DNA of 64,000 bases from contig NZ_AYKH01000012.1 of the NCBI RefSeq assembly GCF_003788635.1, positions 248,001 through 312,000 on the forward strand. The letters run 5' to 3'. This document shows, in pieces, positions 40,835-52,245 of this stretch. Numbering within the stretch: the stretch's first letter is position 1; each line of letters opens with the position of its first letter. Source of the stretch: Salinisphaera orenii subsp. orenii MK-B5 (lineage in GTDB: Bacteria > Pseudomonadota > Gammaproteobacteria > Nevskiales > Salinisphaeraceae). The translations under genes and the position numbers were made by a program. Below the pieces are notes generated by a model. That model was not told the DNA's origin. It worked only from the letters and a program-made list of their open reading frames with translations, and did no database searches.

Positions 40835-41602
40835 ATGGCCGCGCTCGAGATTCTGCACCTGACCGATCCCCATCTGCTGGCGGCAGCGCACGCGCGGCTG
40901 CACGGCTGGCAGGTCGAGACGAGCTTCGGCGCGGTGCTGGCCGACGCCCTCCGCCGTTACCCGAACTGCGCCGCCCTTGTCCTGGGCGGCGATCTGGTCG
41001 ACGACGAGAGCGTGGCCGGCTATCAGCGTCTCGACGCACGCCTGCGCGCACTCGGCCGACCGGTGCTGGCGATGGCCGGCAACCATGACGACCCGGCGCG
41101 CATGCAGCGACATCTCGCCGCGGCCACCGTGCACGGCGTGCTGGATATCGGCGACTGGCGGTTGGTCGCCCTGGACAGTCACCAGCCGGGCACCGCGTCC
41201 GGGCACCTCGGCGAACGACGGATCGAAGCACTGGCGCAGACGCTCGGCGCCTGCCCCCACCGCCCGACGCTCGTGTTCGTTCATCACCCGCCGGCTGCGG
41301 TCGGCAGTGCCTGGGTCGACGCCATCGGCCTGGACGACGGCGCGGCCCTGCGGACTTGCCTGGCCGCGCAGCCGCAGGTTCGGGCCGTGGTCTGTGGGCA
41401 CGCCCATCAGGACGCGCGTATCGATTGCGGCGGTTTCGATTGCCTCGTCACACCCTCGACCATGCGCCAGTTCCTGCCGGGAGCGACGGATTTCGGTCTC
41501 GATCCGAAGCGCGGGCCCGGCTATCGCTGTATCGAGCTGGACGACCACGGCCGCTGGTGCACCCGCGTCCACCGGGTCGCGGTCGCGGACGCCTGTGGAT
41601 AA
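40835..41602 (+). CDS. Metallophosphoesterase, CpdA-like (cAMP phosphodiesterase family)
   Basis: Calcineurin-type phosphoesterase of 255 residues. All metal-ligand motifs occur in order: LTDPHL, GGDLVDDES, AGNHDDPARM, VFVHHPPAAVG and CGHAHQDA. The overall order and length match CpdA, which degrades 3',5'-cAMP, and the family is also annotated as Icc. Whether cAMP is the substrate is inferred. Its last codons lie inside a perfect DnaA box (41594-41602), the first of the origin-like region. Confidence 0.88.
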   Translation: MAALEILHLTDPHLLAAAHARLHGWQVETSFGAVLADALRRYPNCAALVLGGDLVDDESVAGYQRLDARLRALGRPVLAMAGNHDDPARMQRHLAAATVHGVLDIGDWRLVALDSHQPGTASGHLGERRIEALAQTLGACPHRPTLVFVHHPPAAVGSAWVDAIGLDDGAALRTCLAAQPQVRAVVCGHAHQDARIDCGGFDCLVTPSTMRQFLPGATDFGLDPKRGPGYRCIELDDHGRWCTRVHRVAVADACG

Positions 41603-42071
41603 ATCCGGGGATAGTTTGTGCGTCCGCTCGTGACGCCCAGCGTCAGTTCGGCCTAAATATCTCGGGACGTCCCGCCTTCCAACCATTAATTGTTTATTTT
41701 CAGAATCCTACGAGATGACAAAAAAAGGCAGTCGTGTGCTTAACAAAGCCTCTGTTCAGCGACAACCCCGTTGACATTGTGCATAACCGCTGGGCCGCTA
41801 AAGACACTCGTTGAGCTATACGCGCTAACCGCTTGAGCGCAAACGCTAAACGAAGAGAATTCACAAAACCTGTGGATAACTCTGTGGAAACGCGTCGAAC
41901 GAAGCGCGTCATCGGGCATGTGATCAGGGATTTGCGCAAACCGGCGATTTTGTAACCAGTCCGACACACCGATTTAAAATCAGAAGTTTATCCAATAATC
42001 GAGGGTGCGATATCGAGAACCGGAAAAAATCCGCGACCGATCGCCATCGCCCGGACGTGCATTGTGCATAA
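41594..42071. other. Origin-like DnaA-box cluster
   Basis: Four sites match TTATNCACA perfectly, all on the minus strand (TGTGNATAA on plus): 41594-41602, 41778-41786, 41871-41879, 42063-42071. Two more match at 8 of 9 in the same orientation: 41735-41743 and 41883-41891. An IHF-like site (AATCAGAAGTTTA, 41978-41990) lies beside a TTATCC half box, and AT-rich stretches occur at 41679-41700 and 41971-42000. Between the cpdA stop and the thiD start (41603-42109) no gene is seen. The box count is seen; an origin or DnaA-binding role is inferred. Confidence 0.65.
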
Positions 42072-42109: not shown

Positions 42110-42883
42110 ATGACGCGCCCCAATATCCTGGTCATCGCAGGTCACGACCCGAGCGGCGGTGCCGGCATCCAGGCCGACATCGAATCCGCGGCCGCCAATG
42201 GTGCCCACGCCGCCACCGTGGTCACGCTACTGACCTGTCAGGACACCACCAACGTGTACGGCGTGTCGCCGGTCGAGATCGGTTTCTTCCGCCGCTGTCT
42301 GGATACCGCGATCGCCGACATGTCGTTCGGCGCGATCAAGATCGGGGTGGTTGCGGACGTCGCGCAGGTCGCGGCCATCGCCGAACTCGTGCAGGCGCGT
42401 CCCGACATTCCGCTGGTGGTCGATCCGGTGCTGCGCGCGGCCGGCGGCGGCACACTCGCCGGCGATGCGGTCGGCCAGGCGTTGCGCGATCAGCTGTTCG
42501 CCCATGCCACGGTGATCACCCCCAACGCCGCCGAGGCACGGCTGCTCTGCGACGGCGAATCCGAGCTGGCGCGCTGCGGCGAGCGCCTGTCGCGCCCCGG
42601 CGGCCATGCGCTGATCACCGGCGGCGACGAAGACGGCGCGGCTGTGGTCAACCGCGGATTCGTCGCCGGGCGCCTGGCCCACACCTACGAGTGGCCGCGC
42701 GTGCCGGGCGTCTTTCACGGCTCGGGCTGCACGCTCGCCAGCGCGATCGCGGCGCGCCTGGCCTGCGGTGACGCCACCGAGCGCGCGCTCGCCCAGGCCC
42801 AGGACTACACCTGGCGTGCGATCGAACACGGCTTCGCCGCCGGCCGCGGCCAGCGGATACCGGATCGCCGACCCCTGCCATGA
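42110..42883 (+). CDS. thiD: Hydroxymethylpyrimidine/phosphomethylpyrimidine kinase
   Basis: Ribokinase-like enzyme of thiamine synthesis that phosphorylates HMP twice. 257 residues. Start [22 protein letters not shown] is the family hallmark, followed by [32 protein letters not shown] and the anion-hole [16 protein letters not shown]. Its stop overlaps thiE by ATGA, so thiD-thiE-hemL are coupled. The ATG at 42110 is preferred; no strong ribosome site was seen, and in-frame sequence upstream lies in the DnaA-box region. Confidence 0.95.
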
Positions 42884-43539: not shown

Positions 43540-44852
43540 GCGAACCCGCAGCCCGTCCCGGCCCGCGCTCGGCGGCCCTGTTCGAGCGCGCACGGCGCTT
43601 CACCCCCGGCGGCGTCAACTCGCCGGCGCGCACCTTCGACGGGGTCGGCGGCGGCGCCCCGGCCTTCATCGATCGTGCCAGCGGCGCGCGCATCCACGAC
43701 GTCGACGGCAACGCCTATGTCGACTACGTCGGTTCGTTCGGGCCCATGATCCTCGGCCACGCCGACCCGGCGGTGATCGAGGCGGTCCAGAAGCAAGCGG
43801 CCAAGGGCCTGTCCTTCGGCGCGCCCACCGGGCTGGAGGTCGAACTCGCCGAGCTGATCTGCGACATGGTCGACTCGATCGAGTCGGTGCGCATGGTCAA
43901 CTCCGGCACCGAGGCGGCGATGACCGCCATCCGGCTAGCGCGGGGCCATACCGGCCGCAACAAGATCCTCAAGTTCGCGGGCAACTACCACGGCCACGTC
44001 GACGCCCTGCTGGTCAACGCCGGCTCGGGCGCCCTCACCCTCGGCATTCCGGGCTCCCCGGGCGTGCCGCAGTCGGTGGTCGACGACACACTGGTGGCGA
44101 CCTACAACGACCTGGACTCGGTGGCCGAGGCCTTCGCCGCCCACGGCGACGAGATCGCGGCCGTCATGGTCGAACCGGTGGCGGGCAACATGAACTGCGT
44201 GCCGCCGGTCGAGGGCTTTCTCGAGGGCCTGCGCGCGCTCTGCGACGACCACGGGGCGCTGTTGGTCTTCGATGAGGTGATGACGGGCTTCCGGGTGCAC
44301 CCGGCCTGCGCCCAGGCCCACTTCGGCGTGACCCCCGACGTGACCGCGCTCGGCAAGATCGTGGGCGGCGGCATGCCGGTCGGTGCGGTCGGCGCCTCGC
44401 GCCGGGTGATGGAGACGCTGGCCCCGACCGGGCCGGTCTACCAGGCCGGCACGCTGTCCGGCCATCCGCTGGGCATGGCCGCCGGCATCGCCACGCTGAG
44501 CCAGATTCGCGGCGGCGCGGTGCACGCCGCGATCGAGCCCCGGCTGGACGCGCTCGTCTCGGGCCTCGAGGCGCGCGCCCGCCGCCACGGCGTGCCGCTG
44601 ACCGTACAGCGGGCCGGCGCGATGTTCGGGCTGTTCTTCACCGACGCGTCGCGGGTGACCCGCTTCGACGAGGTCGCGGCCTGCGACGGCGCCGCCTTCC
44701 GGCGATTCTTCCACGCCATGCTCGACCACGGGGTCTATCTCGCGCCGTCGCCGTTCGAGGCGGCCTTCATCTCCCGCGCCCACGACGAGGAGGCCATCGA
44801 GGAGACGCTGAACGCGGCGGACGCCGCGTTCGCCGCCGTCGCCCGCGGCTGA
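43536..44852 (+). CDS. hemL: Glutamate-1-semialdehyde 2,1-aminomutase
   Basis: PLP enzyme that forms 5-aminolevulinate, the first committed tetrapyrrole precursor in the C5 pathway. 438 residues. Motifs: [59 protein letters not shown] and [16 protein letters not shown] (PLP Lys in GKIVGGG). AGGAG lies upstream of the ATG. Coupled to thiE. No anomaly seen. Confidence 0.98.
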
Positions 44853-44867
44853 TCGCCCACCGCGCGC

Positions 44868-46907
44868 GTGGGTCACGGCCTGCTCGAGGCACTGCTGGGG
44901 TGGGTCCAGGCCCACCCGCTGGCGGCGCTCGCGCTCGTGTTCGCGGTCGCGCTCGGGGAATCGCTGTTCCTGTTCGGGCTGCTGATCCCCGGCGCGCTGT
45001 TCATGTTCGCCTTCGGCGCGCTCATCGGCGCCGACGCCCTGCCACTGGCGGCCACCTTCGCCGCCGCGATGCTGGGCACGCTGGTCGGCGACGGTGCGAG
45101 CTACGCGCTCGGCCGCCGCTACCGCGGCCGCCTGCAGGCGCTGCCCGGCTTCGCCCGGGCGCCGACACTGGTGGCCCGGGGCCAGTCGTTTCTGGCCACG
45201 CACGGCGGCAAGGCGATCGTGCTGGGCCGGCTCATCGGTGCGCTGCGCCCGATCGTGCCCACCGTGGCGGGTGCAGCCGGGCTGTCGGTCACACGATTCG
45301 CGATCATGGACGTGATCGCCACGCTGGTCTGGGCGCCCTGCTACATCCTGCCCGGCGTGGTCTTCGGCGCCTCGCTGGAGCTCGCCGCCCAGGTCGCGAC
45401 CCGACTGGCGGTGCTGCTGGTGGTGGTCGCGAGCATCGTATGGCTGGCGGTGGCCGCCGCCCGCTTCACGCTCGCAGCCGGCCGGGTGCTGACCCGACGT
45501 TATGCCGAACGCCTGCTCGCCTGGAGCGGTCGCCATCGACGGCTGGGCATCCTCGGCCGCGCGCTCGCGGACCCGCGTCAGCCCGAACTGCCGGCGCTGG
45601 CGATTCTCGCGGCCCTGGTCATGGCCGCGACCGCGTTGCTCTACTGCGCGGTCTGGGGCTGGCCGCAGCCGGTCTATCCCGGCCGCTTCGACGCGCTGGC
45701 CTTCTACGTCACCCAGAGCCTGCACACGCCGATCTCCGACGGGATCGCACGCGTGCTCGCCGAGATCGGCTCGCCGCTGATCTATCTGCCGTTCGCGGCG
45801 GTCATCGGCGCCCTGCTGGCGCTGATGGGCAACTGGCGCGCGGCCGGACACTGGGCGGCGGCGATCGGCTTTTCGGCCCTGGCGACGGTGCTGCTGCGCT
45901 GGTGGCTGGCGATTCCGGGCCCCGGCGCGCTGCTGCACGGCCGCGCCCCCGATCCGCTGTTTCTGGCCGGCGGCGGCCAGGATCTGATCCTGTGCGCCAC
46001 CGTGTACGGGCTGGCCGGCATGGTGCTGGCCTCGCGCCAGCCGGCCGGCGCCCGGCCCTACTATTACGCGGTCACGATCGCCGGCGTCGTGCTGATCGCG
46101 CTCGCGCGGCTGTATCTCGGTCTGGACTGGGCGAGCGATCTGCTCATCGGCCTGCCGGTCGCCTTCGTCTGGCTGAACCTGCTCATGCTCTGCTATCGGC
46201 GCCAGCGGCCGCGACCGGTACGCGGCCGGCCGGTATTCATGGTTCTGGCGGGCTGTCTGGTGATCGCCGCGCTGCTGACGCTGCTGCCTCAGCGGCCTCT
46301 GCCGGAGGCCGCCGGCGCGCAGCCGGCCAGGCCGCTCGCCGACTGGGCCGATGACGGCCACCGTGTGCTGGATGCGCGCATCCGCGACATCGCCGGGCGA
46401 CCGAGCGCGCCGCTCAACGTCCAGGCCGTCGGCGACGCCCACGCGCTGATCGCGACGCTCGCGCGGGCCGGCTGGCATCCGCCGCCGGGCCTGGACGCTG
46501 GCCAGCCGCTGCGCTGGCTCGCACCGGACGTCGACATCGAAACGCTGGCGGTACTCCCGCGCATCCACGACGGGCGCCGCGCCGGCATCACTCTCGTGCA
46601 CGCCATGCCCGCAGACGAGACGAGTCGGCGCAGCGTGCTGCGGCTCTGGCGCAGCGGCGCCTTCACCGCCGACCGGCATCGGCCGATCTGGGTCGGGATG
46701 GTCGATCACCAGCGCGTGGAACGCCGCCTGAGTCTGATCGCCACGGCGGCGGATCAGCGCAGCCACGCGCGGGCGCTGGCCGATCTCGAACGCACGCTCG
46801 CGGCGGCCGGCATCGGACATCGCCGGGTCGCGGGCATCGGCGGCACCACACAGCTGCTGCTCTGGTCCCCGGTGCCCGGCGTCGATGCTAAAGTAGCGCC
46901 GGACTAG
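44868..46907 (+). CDS. DedA-PAP2-LssY fusion membrane protein with an eroded PAP2 active site
   Basis: A 679-residue inner-membrane protein starting at GTG 44868. Residues 1-200 are DedA (SNARE-associated) domain: FAVALGESLFLFGLLIPGALFMF and GRLIGALRPIVPTVAGAAGLS. Residues about 230-450 are PAP2-like membrane helices, but the active motifs are altered: at the PSGH position I read AGGGQD, and the third motif reads ARLYLGLDWASD, with Asp in place of the catalytic His and Ala for Ser. Residues about 500-679 match the LssY C-terminal domain. The family is known as bifunctional DedA/PAP2; here phosphatase activity is doubtful. Role unknown, perhaps lipid transport or scramblase. Confidence 0.85.
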   Translation: MGHGLLEALLGWVQAHPLAALALVFAVALGESLFLFGLLIPGALFMFAFGALIGADALPLAATFAAAMLGTLVGDGASYALGRRYRGRLQALPGFARAPTLVARGQSFLATHGGKAIVLGRLIGALRPIVPTVAGAAGLSVTRFAIMDVIATLVWAPCYILPGVVFGASLELAAQVATRLAVLLVVVASIVWLAVAAARFTLAAGRVLTRRYAERLLAWSGRHRRLGILGRALADPRQPELPALAILAALVMAATALLYCAVWGWPQPVYPGRFDALAFYVTQSLHTPISDGIARVLAEIGSPLIYLPFAAVIGALLALMGNWRAAGHWAAAIGFSALATVLLRWWLAIPGPGALLHGRAPDPLFLAGGGQDLILCATVYGLAGMVLASRQPAGARPYYYAVTIAGVVLIALARLYLGLDWASDLLIGLPVAFVWLNLLMLCYRRQRPRPVRGRPVFMVLAGCLVIAALLTLLPQRPLPEAAGAQPARPLADWADDGHRVLDARIRDIAGRPSAPLNVQAVGDAHALIATLARAGWHPPPGLDAGQPLRWLAPDVDIETLAVLPRIHDGRRAGITLVHAMPADETSRRSVLRLWRSGAFTADRHRPIWVGMVDHQRVERRLSLIATAADQRSHARALADLERTLAAAGIGHRRVAGIGGTTQLLLWSPVPGVDAKVAPD

Positions 46908-50637: not shown

Positions 50638-52245
50638 ATGCCTCCCGACACGACGCGGCGGCGTCTGCTGGTGTCGACCGCGACACTTGCCGGCGCCTCG
50701 GCGCTGGGCGGCTGGCACTGGCCGTTGCATGCGGCCCCGCCCGATGATCGTCGCTTTACCTTCGAGCATCTGATCGCACACGCGCGTGGACTCGCGGATC
50801 GACCCTACGATTCACCCGAGTCGCGGCACGCCGCACTGCTCGATGAGCTCGGCTACGACACCTTCATGGGGATCCATGCCGACCGCGAGCACTCGCTGTG
50901 GCACGGCGCGGACCTGCCGGTGACGGTGGAGTTCTTCCAACTCGACCAGAGCGCACGGGTGCCGGTAACGCTGCACGTCGTCGACACCGACGGCCGCGCA
51001 CGCCGGCTCGACTATCGGCCGTCGCTGTTCCGCTACGACGATCCCGAGCTGGAACAGCGGCTGCCGGCCGATCTCGGCTTCGCCGGTTTTCGCGTGCGCG
51101 ATGCGACCGGCGACCGCCGCGAATGGTGCGCTTTCAAGGGCGCGAGCTATTTCCGCAGCTCCGGCGCGCTCGACCAGTACGGCCTGTCCGCCCGCGGCGT
51201 CGCGGTCGACACCGGCTACGGCGCCGAGGAATCCTTTCCGCACTTCACCGCCTACTGGCTCCTGCGCCCGGCCCCGGAGGATACGACGCTCACCGTGTGC
51301 GCCCTGCTCGAGGGAGAGGATCTGACCGGCGCCTATCGTTTCGAAATCGGCGAGCGCGGCGCGGTGATTGAGGTCGAATCGCATCTGTTTCAGCGCCACG
51401 GCATCCGGCGGCTGGGCATCGCCCCGATGACGAGCATGTTCTGGTTCAGCGAGACCAACGCCCGGCGCGGCACCGACTGGCGTCCGGAACTGCACGACAG
51501 CGACGGTCTCGCCATGATCACCGGGCGCGGCGAACACCTCTGGCGGGCACTGGACAATCCGCCGCGGACCCACTACAGCGCCTTCGGCGACACCGATCCG
51601 CGCGCCTTCGGCCTGCTCCAGCGCGACCGGGACTTCGACCACTATCAGGACGCAGCGGTCCATTACGAACGCCGCCCGAGCCTGTGGGTGACCCCCCGCG
51701 GCGACTGGGGCCCGGGGCATGTCGGGCTGCTCGAACTGCCCACCGCCGAGGAGGTGTACGACAACATCAACGCCTTCTGGGTGCCCGAGGGCAGCGACCA
51801 CGCGGACGCCCGCTGGCGCTTCGATTATCGGCTCGACTGGCGGGACCGCTCAGCGCCCGCGTCCGGACGCGCGCAGGTGGTGGCGACCCGAACCGGCCGG
51901 GCCGGCGACCCGGGCAGCTACGACGACCAGTCGGTGCTGGCTCGCAAGTTCGTGATCGATTTCGAAGGCGGCGCGCTGCCTCGACTCGCCGACGATACGG
52001 CCCTCGATGTCCGGGCCAGCGCCAGTCACGGCGATATCGTCAATCCCTATGCCCGTCGTGTCGCCGGCACGCCGCGCTGGCGCGCGTTCTTCGACTGGAG
52101 CGGCGCGCTGCCGCCGGCGGACGAACCGGTCGAGCTGCGCTGCGTGCTCGCCCACAGCGACCGGCTGCTGACCGAAACCTGGCTGTTCGCCTATTTTCCA
52201 CAAGCGCTGCCGACCCAGATCTTTCACCCGGAGGAAAACGCCTAG
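50638..52245 (+). CDS. Periplasmic glucan biosynthesis protein OpgD/OpgG family
   Basis: Exported protein of 535 residues in the MdoG/MdoD family, which shapes osmoregulated periplasmic glucans. The N-terminus has a twin-arginine signal (TRRRLLVSTATLAGASALGG), which matches OpgD (Tat) rather than OpgG (Sec). FEHLIAHARGLADRPY, NGDFFQLD-like FFQLDQS, YFRSSGALDQYGLSARGVAVDTG and WVTPRGDWGPGHVGLLELPT are conserved. No opgH glucosyltransferase lies next to it, although it usually does. Start ATG 50638 follows rpoH by 31 bases. Confidence 0.93.
   Translation: MPPDTTRRRLLVSTATLAGASALGGWHWPLHAAPPDDRRFTFEHLIAHARGLADRPYDSPESRHAALLDELGYDTFMGIHADREHSLWHGADLPVTVEFFQLDQSARVPVTLHVVDTDGRARRLDYRPSLFRYDDPELEQRLPADLGFAGFRVRDATGDRREWCAFKGASYFRSSGALDQYGLSARGVAVDTGYGAEESFPHFTAYWLLRPAPEDTTLTVCALLEGEDLTGAYRFEIGERGAVIEVESHLFQRHGIRRLGIAPMTSMFWFSETNARRGTDWRPELHDSDGLAMITGRGEHLWRALDNPPRTHYSAFGDTDPRAFGLLQRDRDFDHYQDAAVHYERRPSLWVTPRGDWGPGHVGLLELPTAEEVYDNINAFWVPEGSDHADARWRFDYRLDWRDRSAPASGRAQVVATRTGRAGDPGSYDDQSVLARKFVIDFEGGALPRLADDTALDVRASASHGDIVNPYARRVAGTPRWRAFFDWSGALPPADEPVELRCVLAHSDRLLTETWLFAYFPQALPTQIFHPEENA

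Follow-up and report, generated by a model that had tools for sequence, protein, structure and literature searches.

A DARS-type arrangement of DnaA boxes between cpdA-like and thiD-like genes, probably a DnaA-reactivating element

The window, the whole 64 kb stretch of DNA analyzed here, contains four perfect matches to the DnaA box TTATNCACA by exact search, at 41594, 41778, 41871 and 42063, all on the minus strand and grouped between a cpdA-like and a thiD-like gene. In 100 shuffles the motif occurred 0.16 times per window on average, at most twice and never four times; the cluster of four same-orientation boxes reported in the preliminary description is therefore real and lies beyond shuffle expectation. 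The whole assembly (3.67 Mb in 44 contigs) holds 16 perfect boxes, four of them at this site. Of two further boxes claimed to match in eight of nine letters, one could be located (TTAAGCACA at 41735, minus strand), but no second was found between the genes at one mismatch.

The left neighbor is a plus-strand ORF (40835–41602) that matches the profile model NF008359 with 178.9 bits (cut-off 225), and the right neighbor is a plus-strand ORF (42110–42883, for which we chose the ATG at 42110) that matches TIGR00097 with 176.8 bits (cut-off 204.95). The cpdA and thiD matches are strong yet fall under the curated cut-offs; rpoH passed its model, and the remaining genes were named by reading their translations, among which no mnmG was seen in the neighborhood of the site. 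The stretch had been described as gene-free, which holds between the two genes but not for the first box, whose letters (41594–41602) double as the final codons and stop of the cpdA-like ORF (TGT GGA TAA). On the right, plus-strand ORFs do continue for ~10 kb as stated, the last of them ending at 52245, beyond which comes a long ORF on the minus strand. Further into this side, positions 44001–46000 combine a strong AT skew (−0.242) with a high GC content (0.738), and their long antisense open frames resemble shadows of GC-rich genes.

The right-hand half of the gap is built as a composite element (41857–42071). Its center is box II (TTATCCACA, 41871–41879, minus strand), a perfect match. Box I (GAATTCACA, 41857–41865, plus strand) opposes it and starts 14 bp ahead, whereas box III (41883–41891, minus strand, reading TGTGGAAAC on the plus strand) starts 12 bp past the start of box II; each of the two outer boxes carries two mismatches. 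Downstream, a Fis-like site (GGCGATTTTGTAACC, 41943–41957, no strand assigned) lies at +72 from box II with one mismatch to GnnYAnnnnnTRnnC, and the IHF-like site of the preliminary description is indeed present at +107 (AATCAGAAGTTTA, 41978–41990, plus strand), agreeing with WATCAANNNNTTR in 12 of 13 letters. The element ends in a distal DnaA box, TTATGCACA (42063–42071, minus strand), which is a perfect match, is oriented like box II and lies at +192, its end 38 bp before the thiD ATG. Scored as CACA-N5-TGTGGATA-N4-TGTG, the core pattern has this single match in its own assembly, even with two mismatches allowed. A homologue of the Fis gene was found in all 31 genomes searched, the source genome included.

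The two remaining perfect boxes repeat part of this arrangement. A box II-like TTATCCACA (41594–41602, minus strand, the box that overlaps the cpdA end) is followed 184 bp on by a distal-like TTATGCACA (41778–41786, minus strand), the same kinds of box in the same order as box II and the distal box, and both are common to loci L083–L088 of the thiD sample described below. Another of these loci, L098, has a left copy with box II, box III-like letters, an IHF site at +107 (one mismatch) and a box at +189, and genome G020 carries two cores 353 bp apart. Since the window copy has neither a box I nor an IHF site within one mismatch, we rejected it as a second full DARS (DnaA-reactivating sequence); the left pair is most simply read as a probable partial tandem copy. 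Elsewhere in the genome, the start of a priA-like ORF carries another, weaker unit (contig C9, 74772–74955; L214:9772–9955). It consists of TGTGGATAA, an IHF site at +95 that fits the consensus perfectly and TGTGGATAA again at +175 (offsets counted by hand), lacks a good box I and is not detected by the core pattern even at two mismatches. Its spacings are closer to those of E. coli datA.

Three boxes, with box I opposed to boxes II and III and with starts 14 and 12 bp apart, make up the DARS core according to two reports (PMC4245941, PMC10380432). The window core (GAATTCACA, TGTGGATAA, TGTGGAAAC) shows these orientations, and its offsets are identical to those of both E. coli K-12 sites: DARS1 has TTATCCACT, TGTGGATAA and TGTGTATTA with starts 14 and 12 bp apart, and DARS2 has TTATTCACC, TGTGGATAG and TGTGAAGAA at equal offsets. 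The surroundings of the core are less uniform. DARS1, in the bioD–uvrB region, shares the three-box core and its offsets, and in its downstream ~200 bp no IHF site (one mismatch), perfect Fis site or perfect DnaA box was found. DARS2, in the rppH–mutH region, resembles the site more closely, as its core is followed within 200 bp downstream by IHF and Fis consensus sites and by one more DnaA box. However, in DARS2 the IHF sites (+79, +95) precede a perfect Fis site (+131), whereas here the Fis-like site at +72 precedes IHF, and the far box of DARS2 (+197) is on the plus strand, unlike the distal box of the window. DARS2 also has a dispensable site, FBS1, as an excerpt of PMC4245941 notes. The site is not a DARS2, because the order of IHF sites beside the core and an essential Fis site beyond them is not the order found here, and because the distal box is flipped.

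The downstream half resembles datA rather than a DARS. E. coli datA has an IHF site flanked by boxes of one orientation (PMC10380432), an arrangement found here in box II, the IHF-like site and the distal box. Read on its other strand, datA (glyVXY–queG region) likewise shows an opposed box at one end, then a box, IHF and a further box, at about −12, 0, +93 and +162 by hand count. The site might then act as datA does, with IHF looping box II onto the distal box so that ATP-DnaA hydrolyses its ATP and DnaA activity falls after initiation. We regard this as unlikely, since the geometry is not that of datA: box I lies at −14 rather than −12, there is a box III where datA has no third core box at +12, and the spacings of 107 and 192 depart from about 93 and 162, a combination that fits the DARS core. 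Position also separates the two. In the congener G008, whose complete chromosome is one contig of 4.14 Mb, the distance from dnaA to the site is 0.49 of the half-chromosome, which places the site between origin and terminus, whereas datA lies at about 0.20 in E. coli. E. coli DARS sites are located between oriC and terC, as stated in PMC5742627. Judged by its sequence features, the site most likely works like a DARS; the order of its accessory sites sets it apart from DARS2, and one of its traits is that of datA.

Conservation was examined in 30 thiD loci of the order to which the organism belongs (L083–L112), which were found by thiD with no use of the boxes; L083 is the window itself and L084 is nearly identical to it. 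The core pattern is kept in 28 of the 30, the exact core being absent from L096 and L107. Among the 28 core-bearing loci, an IHF consensus with at most one mismatch occurs at +104 to +108 in 22, a Fis consensus at +71 to +73 in all 28 with at most one mismatch, and a perfect distal box in 26, at flank-site offsets picked after inspecting these thiD loci themselves. A Fis site would be expected of a DARS2; the one here is perfect in 12 of the 28 and has one mismatch in the window, and the source genome has a Fis gene. In terms of boxes, TTATCCACA followed by TTATNCACA 178–193 bp on is found upstream of thiD in most of the 30 loci. This pair is absent or incomplete in L090, L096, L103 and L107; in L098 only the left position carries it.

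Outside the order, the link to thiD disappears. We scanned up to 1.5 kb upstream of 80 named gammaproteobacterial thiD loci (less in six) and found the pair TTATCCACA...TTATGCACA in L003 and L004 only. These probably correspond to G011 and G010, both placed in the genus of the window, although L003 is titled Lysobacterales bacterium; L010, L035 and L080 have one or two boxes in other placements. We rejected a thiD-linked element in gammaproteobacteria at large on these loci, and take the thiD position to belong to this order.

The core itself reaches much further than its position at thiD. The pattern matches 57 of 85 genomes of the order and is missing from the other 28, and the reversed pattern gives two matches in all. 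With one letter freed, it matches 263 of 370 genomes of the class and 120 of 299 of the phylum, with one reversed-pattern match seen in each case. A family that we infer from its sequences to be Enterobacteriaceae (f170, 14 genomes) served as positive control: eight genomes have exactly two matches, in each case one DARS1-like and one DARS2-like, three have one match and three small genomes have none. Four of the eight share their DARS1 25-mer letter for letter with K-12. In another class of the same phylum, the core pattern occurs in 26 of 39 genomes of one family (f190) and in 5 of 5 of another (f194), whereas matches are few or absent in most of the remaining families outside the class.

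A part of these matches was read in its surroundings, namely 30 order loci and 30 class loci from the searches (one of each 30 too short) and 60 chosen pieces, 50 of them outside the order, which favor single-contig and multi-copy genomes. Together with the thiD loci this gave 57 order loci (52 after deduplication) and 89 class loci and second copies, with one of the two tandem G020 cores included in the counts. IHF lies at +104 to +108 in 36 of 52 order and 50 of 89 class loci, and a perfect Fis site at +71 to +73 in 31 of 52 and 32 of 89. The distal box at +186 to +194 (48 of 52 and 53 of 89) is, within the order, better conserved than either of the other two flank sites, a point in favor of the datA-like reading. 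In 200 single-letter shuffles of the same flanks, the count for a flank site never rose above 3. In the 50 pieces from outside the order, which were fetched after the offsets had been seen, IHF was found in 30, perfect Fis in 15 and the distal box in 36; IHF and the distal box occur together in 23 of them. A separate hand count over the search results puts the two together in at least 14 families outside the order. Seven of the 89 class loci have none of the three sites even within wider limits, and the layout is less well preserved in second copies within the order (IHF, perfect Fis and distal box in 4, 7 and 3 of 10).

The genes beside the element differ just as widely, and this bears on two other readings: that DnaA bound here acts chiefly on the transcription of thiD and the genes following it, or that the site does no more than titrate DnaA. 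In support of regulation, the distal box ends 38 bp ahead of the thiD ATG, and the element accompanies thiD within the order, where 28 of the 30 core loci L215–L244 match thiD too. However, the same spacing is found at other genes. Among 80 class loci outside the order, none matches thiD and 27 have a priA start nearby (within ~350 bp by coordinates), and further loci lie beside rsmA, aroE, hemW, cysK with ampD, and others. As for titration, the preliminary description had offered a DnaA-titration or control site as one of its readings. That reading is supported, and the core geometry, which is that of the DnaA-reactivating sequences of E. coli, sharpens it; plain titration would not require core, Fis, IHF and distal box to stand at set distances. 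Regulation of thiD or mere titration as the main role of the site appears improbable.

The features of the gap also bring an origin to mind, and oriC has DnaA boxes, an IHF-like site and AT-rich stretches in common with it. In G008, GC skew sampled in 40 pieces of 20 kb is negative in all pieces up to 1.35 Mb, +0.001 in the piece with dnaA (1.454 Mb), positive in all pieces from 1.55 to 3.42 Mb and negative again from 3.52 Mb. Both pieces adjoining the thiD site of this genome (0.434 Mb) are negative, and the skew minimum at dnaA is 1.02 Mb away. The contig that carries the window, C12, shows no sign switch, with 31 of 32 bins of 10 kb negative and one at 0.000 (~17 kb fall in no bin). The dnaA gene sits on another contig, C44. 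Skew along C44 is mainly negative at first and mainly positive later, and its minimum there is too broad to mark the place of dnaA. In the genomes that have both genes on one contig (G008, G014, G020 and G022), thiD and dnaA are 337 to 1020 kb apart. The preliminary description had proposed a chromosomal origin in an unusual place. Such an origin, or a second one, is favored by four of the assembly's 16 perfect boxes, the IHF-like site, the AT-rich stretches and the rightward genes, but is very improbable because of the GC skew and the place of dnaA, and the cpdA–thiD site is most likely no replication start.

Two observations on DnaA-domain sequences came from the same genomes. G008 has four weak DnaA-domain matches of equal score and frame length (247 aa; C1 600418, 2135519, 2595457 and 3834315), which are probably copies of one mobile-element ATPase gene. 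In the source genome, a short ORF end with a DnaA domain lies behind a permease-like gene (C12:193516–193944, L002); from its translation and a Bac_DnaA match of 37.7 bits, it is probably Hda.

Positions along the arm were compared in a few other genomes, chosen for having matches and with dnaA taken as the origin without recourse to skew. Of the seven single-contig genomes with two copies, five (G101, G114, G391, G173 and G448) have them at 0.08–0.25 and 0.57–0.75 of the half-chromosome, whereas in G152 both are near 0.7 and in G198 they are at 0.07 and 0.34. Two genomes of one genus, G321 (L290, C1:1420711) and G396 (L291, C1:611489), have a single core copy almost exactly opposite dnaA, at 1.0 of the half-chromosome, and a weaker distal box, TGTGGAAAA, at +192. 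Given so few, match-selected genomes and the assumed origin, arm position as a rule was set aside.

With its boxes, a spacing identical to the E. coli DARS core, conservation in the order and beyond, and absent origin signals, the segment 41857–42071 is probably a non-coding DARS-type element part-way along a replication arm. The two mismatches in each of boxes I and III and the one in each of the Fis-like and IHF-like sites count against this reading, as do the site order that departs from DARS2, the datA-like downstream half, the two thiD loci and 28 genomes of the order that lack the core, and the seven class loci with no flank site. How proteins bind the site, how nucleotides are exchanged and what IHF, Fis and the distal box do can be proposed from the sequence as follows. 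Boxes I and II stand head to head and would be occupied by ADP-DnaA, with box III assisting, and the facing AAA+ domains of the DnaA molecules on boxes I and II would promote release of ADP. Apo-DnaA would then leave and bind ATP, raising the level of ATP-DnaA before initiation at the real oriC near dnaA. By bending the DNA at +107, IHF may draw the Fis-like site and the distal box TTATGCACA towards the core, which would make the site switchable.

DARS-like sequences in many proteobacteria are already in print. Of the literature searched, seen mostly as titles and the starts of abstracts, none describes a core, Fis, IHF and same-orientation distal box in this arrangement. Sequences similar to DARS1 and DARS2 are said to be conserved in many proteobacterial species (PMC10380432, citing 2009 work), the DARS2 core with Fis is tied to gammaproteobacteria related to E. 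coli (PMC4245941), and DARS2 is described as conserved in both sequence and spacing among E. coli-proximal beta- or gammaproteobacteria (PMC5742627). Tentatively, and as a possibility that we rate as low, the class-wide unit of three-box core, Fis at +72, IHF at ~+107 and same-orientation distal box at ~+190 could be an ancestral DnaA switch in which the recharging DARS core is combined with the IHF-looped box pair of datA and which is perhaps made bidirectional by IHF and Fis. E. coli DARS1, DARS2 and datA would then be specialized, rearranged descendants of its copies.

DARS function has been studied in E. coli, and conserved IHF and Fis spacing has been described for its near relatives (PMC4245941 and PMC5742627, as far as their available text goes). 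A fixed-spacing version in many other gammaproteobacterial families, beside different genes and with the same internal geometry, would give a sequence handle on the control of the DnaA nucleotide state. Such a handle would serve bacteria whose replication timing is unstudied, and the loci would offer a natural set of cases for testing how the switch direction depends on IHF, Fis and box spacing.
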